This document shows, piece after piece, positions 1-7,756 of a stretch of 64,000 nucleotides of DNA. The DNA comes from Longibacter salinarum (lineage in GTDB: Bacteria; Bacteroidota; Rhodothermia; Rhodothermales; Salinibacteraceae). Both the position numbers and the translations under genes were made by a program. Under the pieces are notes generated by a model. It saw nothing but the letters and a program-made list of their open reading frames with translations. It did not search any database and was not told where the DNA came from. Position 1 is the stretch's first letter. Each line of letters opens with the position of its first letter. The stretch is from the NCBI RefSeq assembly GCF_002554795.1, contig NZ_PDEQ01000003.1, positions 434,001 to 498,000 of the forward strand, read 5' to 3'.

Positions 1-923
1 ATCGGGGCCACGTCGTTCAGCGCGCTAAAGTCGAGCGTATCCTCCGAGTCGTCCGCGGAGCCCGATGGCCAGCCCTGGATCGATTTTCGACCCATGATCA
101 GTTGCATGGGGGATATCTCGATCGGATCTGCCGTTGCGGCGACCACCATCAGTTTGCCGTCGCGCGCGAGTCCGTCAGCAACGTCTGTAATCGCCTGCGA
201 GCTGGGCGCCGTGGCGAGAATGACATCGGCTCCCCCGAGGGCCTGAAGCTGCTCGGCCGTGTCTCCACTCGTCGTGTCGATGAAGTGGTGGGCACCGAGT
301 TTGTGCGCGAGATCTTTCTTGTCGGTGCCGCGCGACAGGGCGATGACTTCGCAGCCAAAGCTCGCGGCATACTGGATTCCCAGGTGCCCGAGTCCACCAA
401 CGCCCTGAACGGCCACCCGTGCGCCGGGTGTGAGACCGCTGTTGCGGAGTGCGTTGAAGGTCGTAATGCCCGCACACAGGAGGGGGGCCGCCTCATCGAA
501 GTTCAAATCGTCGGGCATGCGTGCGACAGCTTCCGCCGGGGCACACATGTACTCGGCATAGCCGCCGTCGAACGAGATGCCTGTGACTTTTCCATTCTGG
601 CAGTTAACGAAGTCACCATCGCGGCATGCCGGACAGGTGAAGTCATGGCCACCGTGCCAGCCGACGCCGACGCGGTCACCTTCCGCCCACATCTCGACAC
701 CGTCGCCGACGGCATCGACAATGCCGGTCACTTCGTGGCCCGGAACGCGAGGATACTCCAGTCCGGGAAACGTGCCCTCCTTCACGAAGGCGTCACTGTG
801 ACAGATGCCGCATGCCTTCACGTTGATGCGTACCTCGCCGGGACCGGGCTCGGGTACGTCGAGCTCGACAACCTGAAGATCACCACCGGCTTCTTGAACC
901 TGTACCGCTTTCATTTTGGCCAT
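1..923 (-). CDS. Zinc-dependent alcohol dehydrogenase (partial, C-terminus outside window)
   Basis: A medium-chain zinc alcohol dehydrogenase that would oxidise alcohols or reduce aldehydes with NAD(P) in the cytoplasm. The start is ATG at 923 (protein begins MAKMKAVQV) and the gene runs off the left edge after about 307 residues. Visible family marks are the catalytic-zinc segment CGICHSD, the PGHE segment, the structural-zinc loop GGHDFTCPACRDGDF and a Rossmann GVGGLGHLG. The first of the four usual structural-zinc cysteines is Asp here, a variant I recall from a subset of the family (GGHDGTC type). It is divergent from the RiPP-like cassette and may be unrelated to it. Substrate unknown. 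Confidence 0.9.
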   Translation of the reverse strand, partial: MAKMKAVQVQEAGGDLQVVELDVPEPGPGEVRINVKACGICHSDAFVKEGTFPGLEYPRVPGHEVTGIVDAVGDGVEMWAEGDRVGVGWHGGHDFTCPACRDGDFVNCQNGKVTGISFDGGYAEYMCAPAEAVARMPDDLNFDEAAPLLCAGITTFNALRNSGLTPGARVAVQGVGGLGHLGIQYAASFGCEVIALSRGTDKKDLAHKLGAHHFIDTTSGDTAEQLQALGGADVILATAPSSQAITDVADGLARDGKLMVVAATADPIEISPMQLIMGRKSIQGWPSGSADDSEDTLDFSALNDVAP

Positions 924-1056: not shown

Positions 1057-1248
1057 CTACTGCTCGGATGGGTCCAAAGGAGCATGCGCACTTTCAGGCA
1101 TAAATGGATGTTGCTTCCACCAATTCGGCGTTCCACACGTCATCTGTTTGATTCTGGTCTGGTCGCCCTGAGAGACGGGCACGTCTTCAGAGTCGCCCGA
1201 TCCCCCATTCACCGCCCCGCGTGTTTCTGCATAATATGGCGCTGTCAT
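1057..1248 (-). CDS. Small hypothetical ORF, candidate peptide precursor
   Basis: A 63-residue reading frame from ATG at 1248 to TAG at 1057, divergent from the exporter gene and overlapping its start by about 13 bases; the frame stays open upstream to 1317. The product is hydrophilic and rich in Pro, Gly, Asp and Glu, with an aromatic C-terminal half (MTCGTPNWWKQHPF). Codon and residue content look more protein-like than the opposite strand. Its position beside a lasso-like maturation cassette makes it a candidate precursor, but it does not fit lasso rules: the Gly following the Thr at -2 has no Asp or Glu at ring positions 7-9. It could equally be a chance ORF. Confidence 0.3.
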   Translation of the reverse strand: MTAPYYAETRGAVNGGSGDSEDVPVSQGDQTRIKQMTCGTPNWWKQHPFMPESAHAPLDPSEQ

Positions 1249-3206
1249 CTGCTTCCATTCGCGAAGGACTCCGCCGTCTAACGTACGTCCCGGACGCGCT
1301 TCGTCTCGTGTGGGCATCCGCCAAAGGATGGACGGCGGGATGGTCGGTTCTCCTCGTGCTACGCGGTATCATTCCTGCGGCGACCGTCTATCTAACGAAG
1401 CTGGTCGTTGATGCGGCCGATGCCGCGATCGGGCAGGGGCTCGGCTGGGAAACCGCGCAGCCGGTCGTGGTGCTGGCAGCGCTGATGGCCGCGCTCATGC
1501 TCCTGCAGGAATTGCTGGGGGGATTGACGACGTGGGTCCAGACCGCTCAGTCGGAGTCACTGACGGATTTTGTGAAGGCGAAAGTTCACGAGAAGGCCGG
1601 GTCCGTCGACCTCGCCTTTTTCGAAAGCCCGGACTACTTCGACCTGATGTCGCGGGCTAATGAGGAGGCGAGTAGCCGCACCCTCTCGCTGTTGCAGAAT
1701 ATTGGTGCGATGGTGCAGAACGGCATCACGCTGGCCGGTGTCGCCATCATCCTGATTCCATACGGCCTCTGGATTCCGATCGCTCTTCTCCTGAGCACGT
1801 TGCCTGCACTCTGGGTCGTCGTGCGCCACAAGCGGATCTACCATCAGTGGTGGAGCGACACGACGGAGGATCGGCGATGGGCGCAGTACTTCGACCGCCT
1901 ACTGACGTATCCGCAACCTGCACCTGAGGTCAGGCAGTTCGAGCTTGCACCCGCCATTCGGAGAGCGTATATCTCGCTCCGAAAAATGCTGCGCGAGAGC
2001 AAGATCCGGCTCATCGGGCGGCAGAATCTTGCCTCGTTCGGAGCTGCCACACTCGGCTTGTTTGTGACCGGCGGGGTGATGGTGTGGATGGGTGCGCGGG
2101 CTCTCTCGGGAACGGCGACACTCGGAGACCTGGCGTTGTTCTACCGCGCATTCAGCGAAGGGAGAGGGCTTCTACGATCGATGCTGGGCGGTCTTGGGAA
2201 TTTGTACGCCGACACGCTCTTCATCCATCACTTGTTTACGTTCCTCGAACTGGAGCCGACCGTCACCGAACCAGAGGAACCGGTCACCATTCCGTCTCGA
2301 GCCGCAGCCGCAAACGGTCGACCGATGTCGAGTCCGGGTATCACGTTCGAGAACGTGACCTTTCGCTATCCGGCCAGCGAAGAAAATGCGCTCGACGGTT
2401 TCGACCTGCGCATTGAGGCGGGGCAGACGGTGGCTATCGTGGGCCCGAATGGCGCTGGTAAGAGCACACTCACGAAGCTCCTCTGCCGGTTCTACGATCC
2501 GCAGGAGGGGAGCGTCCGGGTCGATGGAGTCGATCTTCGCGACATGTCGCTGGAGTCGTTGCGCCGGATGATCACGGTGATGTTCCAGCACCCGATTCAC
2601 TTCATCGCGACGGGCGTCGACAACATCCGGATGGGCGACGTCCGACAAGAGCCAGATCGACAGGATCTTGAGGCAGCAGCGCGTGCCGGCGGCGCACACG
2701 ACATTCTCAAGCGACTGCCCGAGGGCTATCAGACGCTACTCGGCAAACAGTTTCGCGGTGGGGTCGAGCTAAGTGGCGGGCAGTGGCAACGCGTTACCCT
2801 CGCCCGTGCGTTCTTCCGCCAAGCGCCCATCGTTGTGCTTGACGAGCCGACAAGCTTCATGGACTCGTGGGCCGAGACCAAATGGCTCAACCGATTCTGC
2901 ACGCTCGTTCAGGATCGTACAGCCATCATCGTCACGCACCGCTTCACGACGGCGATGAAAGCCGATGTCATTCACGTCGTAGACAACGGACGGGTCATCG
3001 AGTCTGGATCGCACGAAGAGTTGTTGGAGCAAGATGGTATCTATGCGGAATCCTGGCGTGCTCAGACAGCGACGTCGCGCCATCAGGTGACGCATGAACC
3101 GTCGGGAGACGGCGCGTCCACCATGCACGCCGATCCGATGGCTTCAGAGTCCGAACCTGCATCCACATCCCCTACTGTAGACGGCTCTTTTTCGTCAGCT
3201 ACGTGA
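1236..3206 (+). CDS. ABC transporter, fused permease and ATPase (exporter)
   Basis: A 656-residue half-transporter of the exporter class, expected to form a homodimer in the inner membrane. The N-terminal half (about 1-310) is a six-helix transmembrane domain. The ATPase domain follows a short linker and carries Walker A (GPNGAGKST, about residue 402), the signature LSGGQ near 512, the Walker B/D-loop VLDEPTS and the switch His in VTHR. It has no C39 peptidase domain, as is normal for lasso-peptide D-type exporters. ATG at 1236 is preferred to the in-frame GTG at 1221. It is the first gene of a tight operon with a nucleotidyltransferase, a B2-type protease and a PqqD-like protein, which suggests export of a modified peptide. 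Confidence 0.9.
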   Translation: MALSSASIREGLRRLTYVPDALRLVWASAKGWTAGWSVLLVLRGIIPAATVYLTKLVVDAADAAIGQGLGWETAQPVVVLAALMAALMLLQELLGGLTTWVQTAQSESLTDFVKAKVHEKAGSVDLAFFESPDYFDLMSRANEEASSRTLSLLQNIGAMVQNGITLAGVAIILIPYGLWIPIALLLSTLPALWVVVRHKRIYHQWWSDTTEDRRWAQYFDRLLTYPQPAPEVRQFELAPAIRRAYISLRKMLRESKIRLIGRQNLASFGAATLGLFVTGGVMVWMGARALSGTATLGDLALFYRAFSEGRGLLRSMLGGLGNLYADTLFIHHLFTFLELEPTVTEPEEPVTIPSRAAAANGRPMSSPGITFENVTFRYPASEENALDGFDLRIEAGQTVAIVGPNGAGKSTLTKLLCRFYDPQEGSVRVDGVDLRDMSLESLRRMITVMFQHPIHFIATGVDNIRMGDVRQEPDRQDLEAAARAGGAHDILKRLPEGYQTLLGKQFRGGVELSGGQWQRVTLARAFFRQAPIVVLDEPTSFMDSWAETKWLNRFCTLVQDRTAIIVTHRFTTAMKADVIHVVDNGRVIESGSHEELLEQDGIYAESWRAQTATSRHQVTHEPSGDGASTMHADPMASESEPASTSPTVDGSFSSAT

Positions 3207-3210
3207 TGTG

Positions 3211-4539
3211 ATGACGACACTTGTTATTACACATTCTTTTTCTCGTCCCGAAGCTCGGCTCATCCAGCTGTGTACGCGGACACAGATGACCTCGGACATT
3301 GAGCGAGAGGTTCAGGACATCGTGTCATCCTCTCTCGATTGGATGTGGCTTGCACGGTTCGCCCGACGTCACGGAGTGGCCGCGTTGCTCGTTCATCATC
3401 TTCATCGCCTGGAACTGGGTGGACACATCCCGGATCAGGTTCGGGACATGTTGTGGTCGTATGGAAAAGCGGTGCTGACGCATAACGTACAGGCGATGGG
3501 GGAGTTGATACGCGTGATTGAGGCTTTCGACGCGGAAGGGATTGACGCAATGCCGATCAAGGGACCCGTTCTGGCGAATCGGTACTATGGGAATCTCGCA
3601 TTCCGCAGGTTCGTCGACCTGGACATCGTTGTGCGGGAAGAACGGGTCCACGATGCTCTCGACGTGCTCGACCGAATGGGATACGAATTGGGCTATGAGC
3701 GCACGCCGGACGAACTTGAAAGCGCCATTCGCGGTCAACTCGGGATTGAGATGGTGGAGCGTGAGCGTCGAATGGTCGTGGAGGTTCATTGGGCGCTCTT
3801 AAACCGAACCTACAACATCCCGCTCGATCCGCCATCCGTTTGGGGACGGGTGCGACACCTCGCACTCGGAGACAAAACCGTAGCTGCGCTTTCGACCGAA
3901 GACCTATTGCTCTACCTCTGCGCGCATGGCACGAAGCATCACTGGGCCGGGTTGAAATGGGCATGTGACGTCGCGGAGGTGCTGCGTTCGGCAGATATCG
4001 ACTGGGACGCACTCAATCGGCTGGCTCAAGAGCATCATTGCACCCGGATTTTACATCTTGGTCTTGCGCTCGCCTACCGATGGCTCGACGCTCCAGTACC
4101 GGAGCGGGTAATCGAGGCGGTGCGTGATGACAGCGGCATCAATCGGCTCATTCGCCAGATTGAAGATGGATGGCTGTGGACGGATCAGCCGCTTGAGCCG
4201 GAGGCCAGTCCACGAAAAGTCGCGTTCACGCTTGGGACGCGTACGCGCGTCAGGGACAACGCACGCTTCTTCTGGCACAACGTCGGCCTAATGGTCGGTC
4301 CGAACAAGAAGGATCGCGCCGTTGTGGACCTGCCGGGGTGGCTGGCGTGGGCCTACGTCGTCATCCGTCCATTTCGTGTGATCACGGATTGGCTAGAGGC
4401 AGATTCTGGGGAAGAGACGACCATCCGGAATGAATACGTGGACAAGCCCATCGACCGCCGGCCGGCCGCCCCCAGCAGTGAAAATGAGCAGTCTCGGGGA
4501 TCGTCCTCGACCATACTCGTCGAAGAGGCCGCCTCATGA
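3211..4539 (+). CDS. Nucleotidyltransferase family protein (PF14907 type, RiPP-associated)
   Basis: A 442-residue protein resembling the uncharacterised nucleotidyltransferase family often encoded beside lasso-peptide B1/B2 genes. Recognisable pieces are the N-terminal helical part (DWMWLARFARRHGVAALL), the KGP segment near residue 117, and the nucleotidyltransferase-like RRFVDLDI with two aspartates that would bind metal, followed by EVHWALLNR. The start lies 4 bases after the exporter stop (GTG 3208 or ATG 3211), and the 3' end overlaps the next gene by ATGA. Its activity is unknown; in such clusters it may nucleotidylate or phosphorylate a peptide, which is inference. The C-terminal 60 residues are polar and probably disordered. 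Confidence 0.8.
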   Translation: MTTLVITHSFSRPEARLIQLCTRTQMTSDIEREVQDIVSSSLDWMWLARFARRHGVAALLVHHLHRLELGGHIPDQVRDMLWSYGKAVLTHNVQAMGELIRVIEAFDAEGIDAMPIKGPVLANRYYGNLAFRRFVDLDIVVREERVHDALDVLDRMGYELGYERTPDELESAIRGQLGIEMVERERRMVVEVHWALLNRTYNIPLDPPSVWGRVRHLALGDKTVAALSTEDLLLYLCAHGTKHHWAGLKWACDVAEVLRSADIDWDALNRLAQEHHCTRILHLGLALAYRWLDAPVPERVIEAVRDDSGINRLIRQIEDGWLWTDQPLEPEASPRKVAFTLGTRTRVRDNARFFWHNVGLMVGPNKKDRAVVDLPGWLAWAYVVIRPFRVITDWLEADSGEETTIRNEYVDKPIDRRPAAPSSENEQSRGSSSTILVEEAAS

Positions 4540-4997
4540 CACGACTTATTTCGACATCACGACTTCGTCGACTGGTCTCCCGTTTTCGGCGACGGTCCTG
4601 GGCAGAGAGAATGGCCCTCGCCGAGGCATTCGTGGTTGTGCCGGCGGCGTGGGCGGCGCTACGACTCGTGTCCTTTCGCCGGCTTCTCCGTACGACACGT
4701 CCGCCAGACGGTCACGTGCAGTGGACTGCGCAACACCAGCGAGTATGCTGGGCCGTTCAGGCCGTCGCGAAACGATGGTTTCCATCTCGGCCCTGTCTCG
4801 TTCAGGCGCTTGCTGCCCTGTGGTTGTTGCGACCGCGGGGTGTCCGGCCGGACCTTTTTCTTGGCGTTGTACGCGAAGATGGGTTGTTTCGGGCACATGC
4901 CTGGCTCGAAGTCGACGGTGACGTTGTCCTCGGTGGACGGCGGTCGCCGGACGTATTCCAGCCGTTTCCTCCTCTCGTTCACTCCCCTTACGTGTAA
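4536..4997 (+). CDS. Lasso-peptide biosynthesis B2-type protein (transglutaminase-like leader protease)
   Basis: A 153-residue protein of the size and pattern of lasso-peptide B2 proteases, which cut the leader from the precursor. The expected catalytic Cys is C87 in RPCLVQALA and the His is H121 in RAHAWLEV, followed by acidic residues at 125-128 that would complete the triad. The basic N-terminus (RRLVSRFRRR) is common in the family. It overlaps the upstream nucleotidyltransferase by 4 bases (ATGA) and is followed after 8 bases by the PqqD-like gene, so B2 and its recognition partner are translationally linked. No asparagine-synthetase-type cyclase, the usual third enzyme, is encoded nearby. 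Confidence 0.85.
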   Translation: MTRLISTSRLRRLVSRFRRRSWAERMALAEAFVVVPAAWAALRLVSFRRLLRTTRPPDGHVQWTAQHQRVCWAVQAVAKRWFPSRPCLVQALAALWLLRPRGVRPDLFLGVVREDGLFRAHAWLEVDGDVVLGGRRSPDVFQPFPPLVHSPYV

Positions 4998-5005
4998 CTC
5001 CACCT

Positions 5006-5314
5006 ATGTCTTCGAACCCCATGACGACTCAGAGCCCGAACCTGAATACGTGTCTCAAGGCTGACAGCCAACACGTTTCGTCTGATCTAGCTGGCGAGCA
5101 GGTCATCCTCAACCTCGACAACGGCGTGTACTACAGCCTGAACGAGGTCGGTAGCCAAGTCTGGTCGCTACTGAAGCAGCCACGTACGCTCCATGAAGTT
5201 GTGGACGACATCGCAGGCGATTATCCGGTCCCGCGCGACCGGATCGAAGCGGACGTCGTCACGCTTGCTGGAGATCTGCTTGAGGCCGGACTTGTCTCTG
5301 TCATCGAGGATTAG
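5006..5314 (+). CDS. PqqD family peptide recognition protein (lasso B1-like RRE)
   Basis: A 102-residue PqqD-fold protein. The segment VILNLDNGVYYSLNEVGSQVWSLL is the classical RRE strand-turn-helix, followed by the helical second half that ends DLLEAGLVS. In lasso and other RiPP pathways such proteins hold the leader peptide and deliver it to the protease or other enzyme. It is the last gene of the exporter-nucleotidyltransferase-B2 operon, directly behind B2, as expected for a B1 partner. ATG at 5021 is an alternative start. Confidence 0.88.
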   Translation: MSSNPMTTQSPNLNTCLKADSQHVSSDLAGEQVILNLDNGVYYSLNEVGSQVWSLLKQPRTLHEVVDDIAGDYPVPRDRIEADVVTLAGDLLEAGLVSVIED

Positions 5315-5323
5315 GAGCTGGCG

Positions 5324-5437
5324 GTGCACATCGCTTCGCTCCGTTCTTTCCGCTCCGTGTTGCGGGGCGAAGGCAGTGAGCGGCTGTTGGCGTGGTGTGC
5401 CGTCCCGACGCGTGTGATGCGCGCCGGGGATCCGTGA
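5324..5437 (+). CDS. Very small ORF after the PqqD-like gene
   Basis: A GTG-started frame of 37 codons with an AGGAG six bases upstream, beginning 9 bases after the PqqD-like stop and ending TGA at 5437. The product is basic (begins MHIASLRSFR, ends RAGDP) and contains one Cys. The well-placed ribosome site and operon position are the only arguments for it. I see no leader motif or core typical of a lasso precursor, so it may not be translated. Confidence 0.2.
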   Translation: MHIASLRSFRSVLRGEGSERLLAWCAVPTRVMRAGDP

Positions 5438-5467
5438 GGGTGTTCGTACCCTTCGGATGTCCGTAAA

Positions 5468-5511
5468 AAGCCGGTCGGCCGCCATCGTGAAGATGTGCAG
5501 CCGACCGGCTT
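5468..5511. terminator. Hairpin between convergent PqqD-like and HNH genes
   Basis: Perfect 12-base inverted repeat (AAGCCGGTCGGC at 5468-5479 and its complement at 5500-5511) with a 20-base loop. It lies between the ends of two convergent genes and probably terminates transcription from both sides, although neither flank has a long T-run. Confidence 0.6.
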
Positions 5512-5550
5512 CAATGTGTGGTGAAAGCGAACGAAGCGAGGTGGGTGAGG

Positions 5551-6051
5551 TCAGGAAAGAAAGAGGTATGGCTTCCAGGTATCGTCCACACTCCCGACGA
5601 AGTCACGGATGAACATGACGTAGCTCGGGCGGAAAGGGTCTCGATCGAGTTCCATGCCGACCTCTTCCGGCGTACGGTCTCCCTTTGCGTTATTACAGGA
5701 GACGCAGGCCGTGACGAGGTTCTCCCACGTGTCGCGCCCACCGCGAGATTTCGGCAGGACGTGATCAATCGTGAGGTCGTCCCGAGAGCCGCAATATTGA
5801 CAGGTACTACGGTCGCGCTTGATAATATTCTTGCGCGACAGCATCACACGCTTGTACGGCACACTCGCGTACTGCTTCAACCGGACGATGCTCGGCGAAG
5901 GATAGCGAAGGTTCGGCGACCGGATGTATTGATCCGGTACGGCCTCCACAAGGTGGACTTTCTGGAGGTGCATAAGGATGACGGCTCGCTGAACGCTACA
6001 TACCGTCAGCGCACTGTAATCCTGATTGAGAACGAGTACGTGACCGGTCAT
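5551..6051 (-). CDS. HNH endonuclease family protein
   Basis: A 166-residue HNH nuclease of the common free-standing bacterial type. The N-terminus VLVLNQDYSALTVCSVQRAV and the C-terminal zinc/HNH core (CQYCGSRDDLTIDHVLP, then NLVTACVSCNNAKGDRTPEE) are typical. The two CxxC pairs bind structural zinc and DHVLP carries the catalytic His. I chose ATG at 6051 because family homology begins at MTGHVLVLN and a GGGGG stretch precedes it; an upstream in-frame ATG at 6141 would add 30 atypical residues. It is a single gene, convergent with the RiPP-like cassette. Biological target unknown. Confidence 0.88.
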   Translation of the reverse strand: MTGHVLVLNQDYSALTVCSVQRAVILMHLQKVHLVEAVPDQYIRSPNLRYPSPSIVRLKQYASVPYKRVMLSRKNIIKRDRSTCQYCGSRDDLTIDHVLPKSRGGRDTWENLVTACVSCNNAKGDRTPEEVGMELDRDPFRPSYVMFIRDFVGSVDDTWKPYLFLS

Positions 6052-6141
6052 ACGGGGTGACCCCCTGCCGACCTCGTAGGACGACGATTCGAACGAGGGA
6101 GGAACGGCGTCGGGGCGCGTCGCGGTCGCGTAACGTTGCAT

Positions 6142-7153: not shown

Positions 7154-7756
7154 GTGGCTTCACGCCAAATCATCGGGGAGCGGCAGATCCTTGGCGCCAC
7201 GCTTCCGTTTACGGTTTCAAATACCCTCTCGCCAAACCGTTTGCGTCCCGTGACTCGCCTCGTTGCTCGCGGTGCCTGGATCGTTCCGCTCTTCTTCTTT
7301 GTTATCGCCCTTCATCAATCAAAGACGGCTGTCGACCTCCAAGCGACGCTTGAACGTGGCACGCCGGCTACGGCTGAAGTTCTGGAGGTGCATGAAGAGA
7401 ATCGCGTCGATGTTACCTACGACTGGATCTCAATCCGCGTCCCGCTAGACGACGGGCGTGTGATTACGAAAGAGGAACTCGCACTTCCCCACTCTCTGAT
7501 TCCGCTCGTCGCGGATAAGGAAACCATTGATGTCCGGGTCAACCCCGGCGCGAACCAGGAGGTGGTGATCACATCTATCGTTAACACGCAGTGGCGAATT
7601 GCCGCCATGAACGCAGGCATCGCATTCGTGGCAGCCCTGTTGTTCGGTGGAGGCGTATGGTACTGGAATCGCAGTCTAAAAGAGGAAGGGGATCCAGCGG
7701 AGCGAGGTGTCGAAGAACCGGATCCGGACCACCCCGCGCGACAGGTGGCTCGGTGA
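7154..7756 (+). CDS. DUF3592-like membrane protein
   Basis: A 200-residue protein starting at GTG 7154 (or GTG 7250). It has a transmembrane helix near residues 40-55 (WIVPLFFFVIAL), a soluble beta domain beginning GTPATAEVLEVHEENRVDVTY, and a second helix near 150-172 (AGIAFVAALLFGGGVWYW) followed by an acidic tail. Two helices flanking a small periplasmic beta domain is the DUF3592 layout. Function unknown. It sits 14 bases after the secreted protein gene and is followed by a strong hairpin. Confidence 0.65.
   Translation: MASRQIIGERQILGATLPFTVSNTLSPNRLRPVTRLVARGAWIVPLFFFVIALHQSKTAVDLQATLERGTPATAEVLEVHEENRVDVTYDWISIRVPLDDGRVITKEELALPHSLIPLVADKETIDVRVNPGANQEVVITSIVNTQWRIAAMNAGIAFVAALLFGGGVWYWNRSLKEEGDPAERGVEEPDPDHPARQVAR

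Follow-up and report, generated by a model that had tools for sequence, protein, structure and literature searches.

A lasso-type leader-peptidase and export cassette in Longibacter salinarum, probably working with cyclases encoded at unlinked loci

The lasso peptide genes of Longibacter salinarum are not co-located, co-location being no biochemical necessity, and occupy three unlinked loci: one in the window, meaning the whole stretch of 64,000 nucleotides analyzed (G000:C3:434001-498000, from a 4.41 Mb genome in 22 contigs), and one on each of contigs C5 and C6. It is highly probable that the window cassette encodes the leader recognition (B1), leader peptidase (B2), serine-tailoring and export half of a lasso pathway whose remaining functions are provided in trans, with the C6 unit as its matching half and the C5 unit probably served too. 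Split lasso operons (the cebulassopins, as far as their title indicates) and distant tailoring genes are known already; here, it is the leader-peptidase module that is unlinked from the cyclases and probably shared.

The four cassette genes (Table 1) are arranged in tandem; the nucleotidyltransferase and B2 genes overlap by 4 bases, and an 8-base gap separates B2 from B1. A previous sequence-only reading had described this layout, including the overlap and the gap, and had recognized an exporter, a PF14907 nucleotidyltransferase, a B2-type protease and a PqqD-fold protein at 1236-5314, all of which are confirmed by matches to PF00005, PF14907, NF033537 and PF05402. An alternative GTG start at 1221 would extend the exporter frame to 1221-3206. 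The catalytic residues of B2, Cys87 and His121, are at the positions given by that reading and are kept across 32 aligned homologues. B1 reaches 67.9 bits against the lasso model NF033536 (lasso_PqqD_Bac), under the cut-off of 80, and its relatives in the PDB are TbiB1 (5v1u) and further lasso PqqD chaperones. A PDB search returned no relative of the nucleotidyltransferase, and the single match of B2, 6een (a designed pentatricopeptide protein, 34 residues), was rejected as spurious. PADLOC gave only generic ABC/AAA matches. A strong hairpin that separates B1 from the convergent HNH gene probably ends the cassette transcript. The cassette itself contains neither a kinase nor a precursor gene; in line with the sequence-only reading, no cyclase or YxxP-type precursor is found near it, and the same holds for the ~10 kb upstream (L011), while a precursor profile had no match on this contig. 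A search for direct repeats at the cassette borders returned only a chance 8-mer.

Table 1. Coordinates of the window cassette, its flanks and the lasso-related loci elsewhere.
Feature	Position	Strand	Evidence or remark
Zinc alcohol dehydrogenase (ADH), left flank, outside the system	3-923	-	Adjoins HNH gene in G001
ABC exporter, MsbA/McjD-like, permease and ATPase in one gene	1236-3206	+	PF00005, 7.5e-32
PF14907 (NTP_transf_5) nucleotidyltransferase-like protein	3208-4539	+	PF14907, 6.2e-62
B2 leader peptidase, Transglut_core3	4536-4997	+	NF033537 lasso B2, 80.3 bits vs cut-off 33
B1 recognition protein, PqqD fold, discrete RRE	5006-5314	+	PF05402, 4.9e-19
Strong hairpin, probable terminator	5468-5511	not assigned	RNA fold -34.8 kcal/mol, z -4.4
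HNH endonuclease, right flank, housekeeping-like, outside the system	5551-6141	-	Kept in nearly all relatives
C6 lasso-type cyclase	L010:8175-10286		NF033535 best model
C6 HprK-like kinase	L010:10283-11224		
C6 precursor, 52 residues	L010:11467-11625		
C5 HprK-like kinase	L009:7006-7983	-	
C5 phosphoribosyltransferase-PqqD fusion	L009:7980-9194	-	
C5 precursor	L009:9302-9466	-	
C5 lasso-type cyclase	L009:9463-11403	-	
Rhodothermus loci	L076-L079, L082-L085, L107, L108, L113, L114		

The cyclases and precursors, for which a whole-genome search had been proposed, are both present away from the window. An asparagine-synthase search of the genome gave two strong matches, one on C5 and one on C6. 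For both, the lasso cyclase NF033535 is the top NCBIfam model, with scores of 325 and 346 bits that fall under the cut-off of 525, as do those of several cyclases of relatives with contiguous clusters. Both proteins retain the SGGxDS motif and, judged by distances to contig ends, both genes lie >230 kb from the window cassette. A profile built from 12 precursors of this order has exactly two matches in the whole genome, on C5 and C6, weak matches on C2 and C4 being rejected as chance. The leader Y-E-(S/P)-P-R-L...G-x-V-x-D-(L/I)-T-A is common to the two precursors, with A-G coming next. Both have a YxxPxL leader, a Thr at position -2 and a C-terminal Ser, which is where lasso kinases act (PMC9266682). 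Assuming cleavage after T-A, the ring Asp is core position 9 in both. PF13471 has a single match in the genome, the window B2, and neither the C5 nor the C6 unit possesses a B2 gene; PqqD proteins are limited to the window B1 and the phosphoribosyltransferase (PRTase) fusion of C5.

How the window cassette relates to the C6 unit was examined in a set of 100 relatives. In G017, a member of the same family assembled in few contigs, the cyclase, precursor, kinase, ABC, nucleotidyltransferase, B2 and B1 genes are contiguous in that order. In single-gene trees, a well-supported grouping joins the window exporter and nucleotidyltransferase to G017, G003 and G010 (and the nucleotidyltransferase also to G006); support is weaker for the placement of B2 and B1 in the same G017/G003/G010 grouping. 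Similarly, the C6 cyclase, which has a long branch, and the C6 kinase group with G017 and G006. Separate concatenated trees of the window half and of the C6 half both recover the G017 and G006 grouping (100/100 each), and the core end TPxx(D/E)LTFS is common to the precursors of C6, G017 and G006. The two halves have a common ancestry; given the contiguous set of G017, the agreement of the trees and the common core end, sequence comparison indicates that they are most likely one lasso set cut in two. Of the possibilities raised by the sequence-only reading, the one that is well supported is a split cluster whose cyclase lies far away. In the draft genome G006, a lone B2 is found on another contig (L095:6398-6865) with unrelated genes on either side, which suggests that B2 became separated in that genome as well.

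For the C5 cyclase and kinase, the sister genes are those of the second cluster in G012 (support 100), where an own B2 adjoins the cyclase. Since the C5 unit is devoid of B2 and the window B2 is the sole copy in the genome, the window module probably serves C5 as well; if C5 makes a lasso peptide, the window B2 is its only known candidate peptidase. In G009, the sister of the C5 unit (L168:7843-10966) has its PRTase-type lasso cyclase broken by ~1.2 kb of unrelated sequence, and B2 was not detected in this 88% complete genome; with that degree of completeness in mind, the pair of observations fits a dependence on B2. The PRTase domain of the C5 fusion carries a PRPP-type VIVDDCVITGAR motif, and relatives of the fusion occur in four of the 245 genomes of the class (G000, G012, G009 and G013), all of which encode lasso-type cyclases. 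The fusion is possibly a new lasso tailoring enzyme; no literature joining lasso peptides, an RRE and a phosphoribosyltransferase was found in a search that covered mostly papers outside subscription. The fuller proposal, that one unlinked B1/B2/nucleotidyltransferase/exporter module serves two cyclase-precursor-kinase units while the PRTase-RRE fusion gives a new phosphoribosyl-type tailoring, is put forward tentatively, at rather less than an even chance. A gene for a DUF5117/DUF4953 met-zincin protease (L009:4368-6920) follows the C5 kinase after 85 bases on the same strand.

A pathway can be proposed by homology with characterized systems, in which a serine kinase, leader binding by B1, B2, ring closure, PsmN-like addition to phospho-Ser and ABC export are documented (PMC9266682, PMC13381572, PMC5067487). 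The HprK-like kinase would phosphorylate the C-terminal Ser of the precursor, and B1 would bind the YxxPxL leader and hand the precursor to B2, which would cut the leader after the Thr-x dipeptide. The cyclase would link the Ala1 amine to Asp9, the nucleotidyltransferase-like enzyme would decorate the phospho-Ser and the ABC protein would export the product. We infer that the three loci work in trans in this process. By analogy with PsmN, which decorates a phosphorylated C-terminal Ser (PMC9266682), the window nucleotidyltransferase is likely a tailoring enzyme of the same type, and the kinase expected to make its substrate is also remote from the window. It had been suggested instead that the nucleotidyltransferase replaces cyclization; the activity of PsmN and the presence of PF14907 proteins inside ordinary, cyclase-containing lasso clusters of relatives speak against such a substitution.

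The gene set is reminiscent of paeninodin/pseudomycoidin-type clusters (A, B1, B2, C, HprK kinase, nucleotidyltransferase and ABC), which hold the same seven functions, with discrete B1 and B2 proteins, kinase and nucleotidyltransferase tailoring and precursors ending in Ser (PMC9266682). In contrast to these clusters, the genes here are dispersed over unlinked loci, and there is a single B2 for two cyclase-precursor units. Cebulassopins are, by the title of their report, lasso peptides from a split operon (JACS 2026, 10.1021/jacs.5c14658, cited in PMC13352647 and PMC13381572), and their host bacteria differ from the present ones as far as the citation shows. In the case of citrulassin, the PAD gene lies far from the lasso cluster, a remote tailoring as found here; however, only a tailoring enzyme is remote in that system, whereas in the present genome it is the core leader peptidase that lies far from the cyclase.

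Across the 100 relatives, B2 and a lasso cyclase (threshold of at least 240 bits) occur together in 30 genomes, with B2 alone in five, a cyclase alone in two and neither in 63 (Fisher value 5e-18, to be taken as a guide only since the genomes are related). Among the five B2-only genomes, G057 and G063 each encode a diverged cyclase nearby and the B2 match of G022 is weak; G044 and G054 have cyclase-less cassettes with their own precursor. These HprK-nucleotidyltransferase-B1-B2 cassettes (L100:3844-6973 and L101:9065-12556, respectively) come with a precursor combining a lasso-like leader and the conserved core LT(Q/K)AEYGGLD...LLFAMASP, and are possibly a linear RiPP family using B2. They lend some weight to the idea that the window cassette is itself a cyclase-free linear system, which cuts, tailors and exports its own linear peptide like the systems for linear polyphosphorylated peptides (LPP), whose core consists of an RRE, an NTP transferase and an MsbA-like exporter without a local cyclase (PMC13381572). 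We nevertheless regard this as improbable: the window cassette has neither precursor nor kinase, while LPP clusters include both, together with a signal-peptidase-I-like leader peptidase beside the RRE in place of B2 (PMC13381572), and the four window genes group with cyclase-containing lasso clusters and not with G044, G054 or G022. That the cassette is what is left of a decaying cluster, as the sequence-only reading also considered, appears just as improbable. The absence of the whole set from the genus mate G001, by loss or from the start, would fit decay, but all four window frames are open and tightly spaced with catalytic residues kept, and the matching cyclases and precursors are intact. 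In G001, the ADH and HNH genes are neighbors 277 bp apart (an empty site), and the cassette, B2 and cyclases were not detected in this one draft, which is 83% complete and from which gain in the window genome and loss in G001 cannot be told apart. This neighborhood also bears on an assembly artefact, by which the cyclase half would really adjoin the window cassette. Such an error is conceivable in a genome of 22 contigs but very improbable, as the cassette sits between these two neighboring genes and each locus is at least 79-175 kb from its own contig ends.

A closer competitor, which we consider somewhat unlikely but a real possibility, accepts the split and restricts the window module to C6, C5 being inactive or relying on another protease. 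Common ancestry with the window module is indeed limited to C6, the C5 unit has its own RRE within the PRTase fusion, so that another, unrecognized peptidase is possible, and its G009 sister has an interrupted cyclase. Against this restriction, the C5 frames are open, the cyclase motif is kept and the precursor leader motif matches that of C6. A leader-peptidase module that serves C6 and probably also C5 remains the preferred reading.

Genome mining expects compact lasso clusters, so cyclase loci that lack B2, like B2 loci that lack a cyclase, may be filtered out or taken for a new class. On the best explanation, the B2-only and cyclase-only pieces described here belong together as the two halves of a single pathway. 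Confirmation of this would mean that a leader peptidase and a cyclase can act from unlinked loci, and such genomes would offer natural test cases for one B1/B2 pair serving several cyclases.

B2 is also found apart from the cyclase elsewhere in the order: in Rhodothermus and G033, 0.16-1.7 Mb separate it from the one strong cyclase. In Rhodothermus, for which the literature on lasso peptides gave passing mentions only in a search covering mostly papers outside subscription, the sole B2 belongs to a separate nucleotidyltransferase-B2-HprK-B1 locus next to an HNH gene, 0.16-0.88 Mb from a cyclase-HprK-precursors-ABC-B1 locus. At the B2 locus of G052 and G067, the nucleotidyltransferase and kinase are broken or gone, and B2 and B1 are still open. 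In the one-contig genome G033, a lone B2 (L080:9696-10223) stands among unrelated genes, 1.7 Mb from a B1-cyclase-kinase-ABC-nucleotidyltransferase cluster. Both in the window (5315-6141) and in Rhodothermus (L078:7943-8980), a B2/B1 cassette lies directly beside the same HNH gene. A common ancestral locus was considered on this ground and rejected, since the B2, B1 and nucleotidyltransferase of the Rhodothermus locus are placed apart from the window genes in the trees. In the genus of the window genome, the orientation of the HNH gene with respect to its neighbor (window 7154-7756) is reversed as well.
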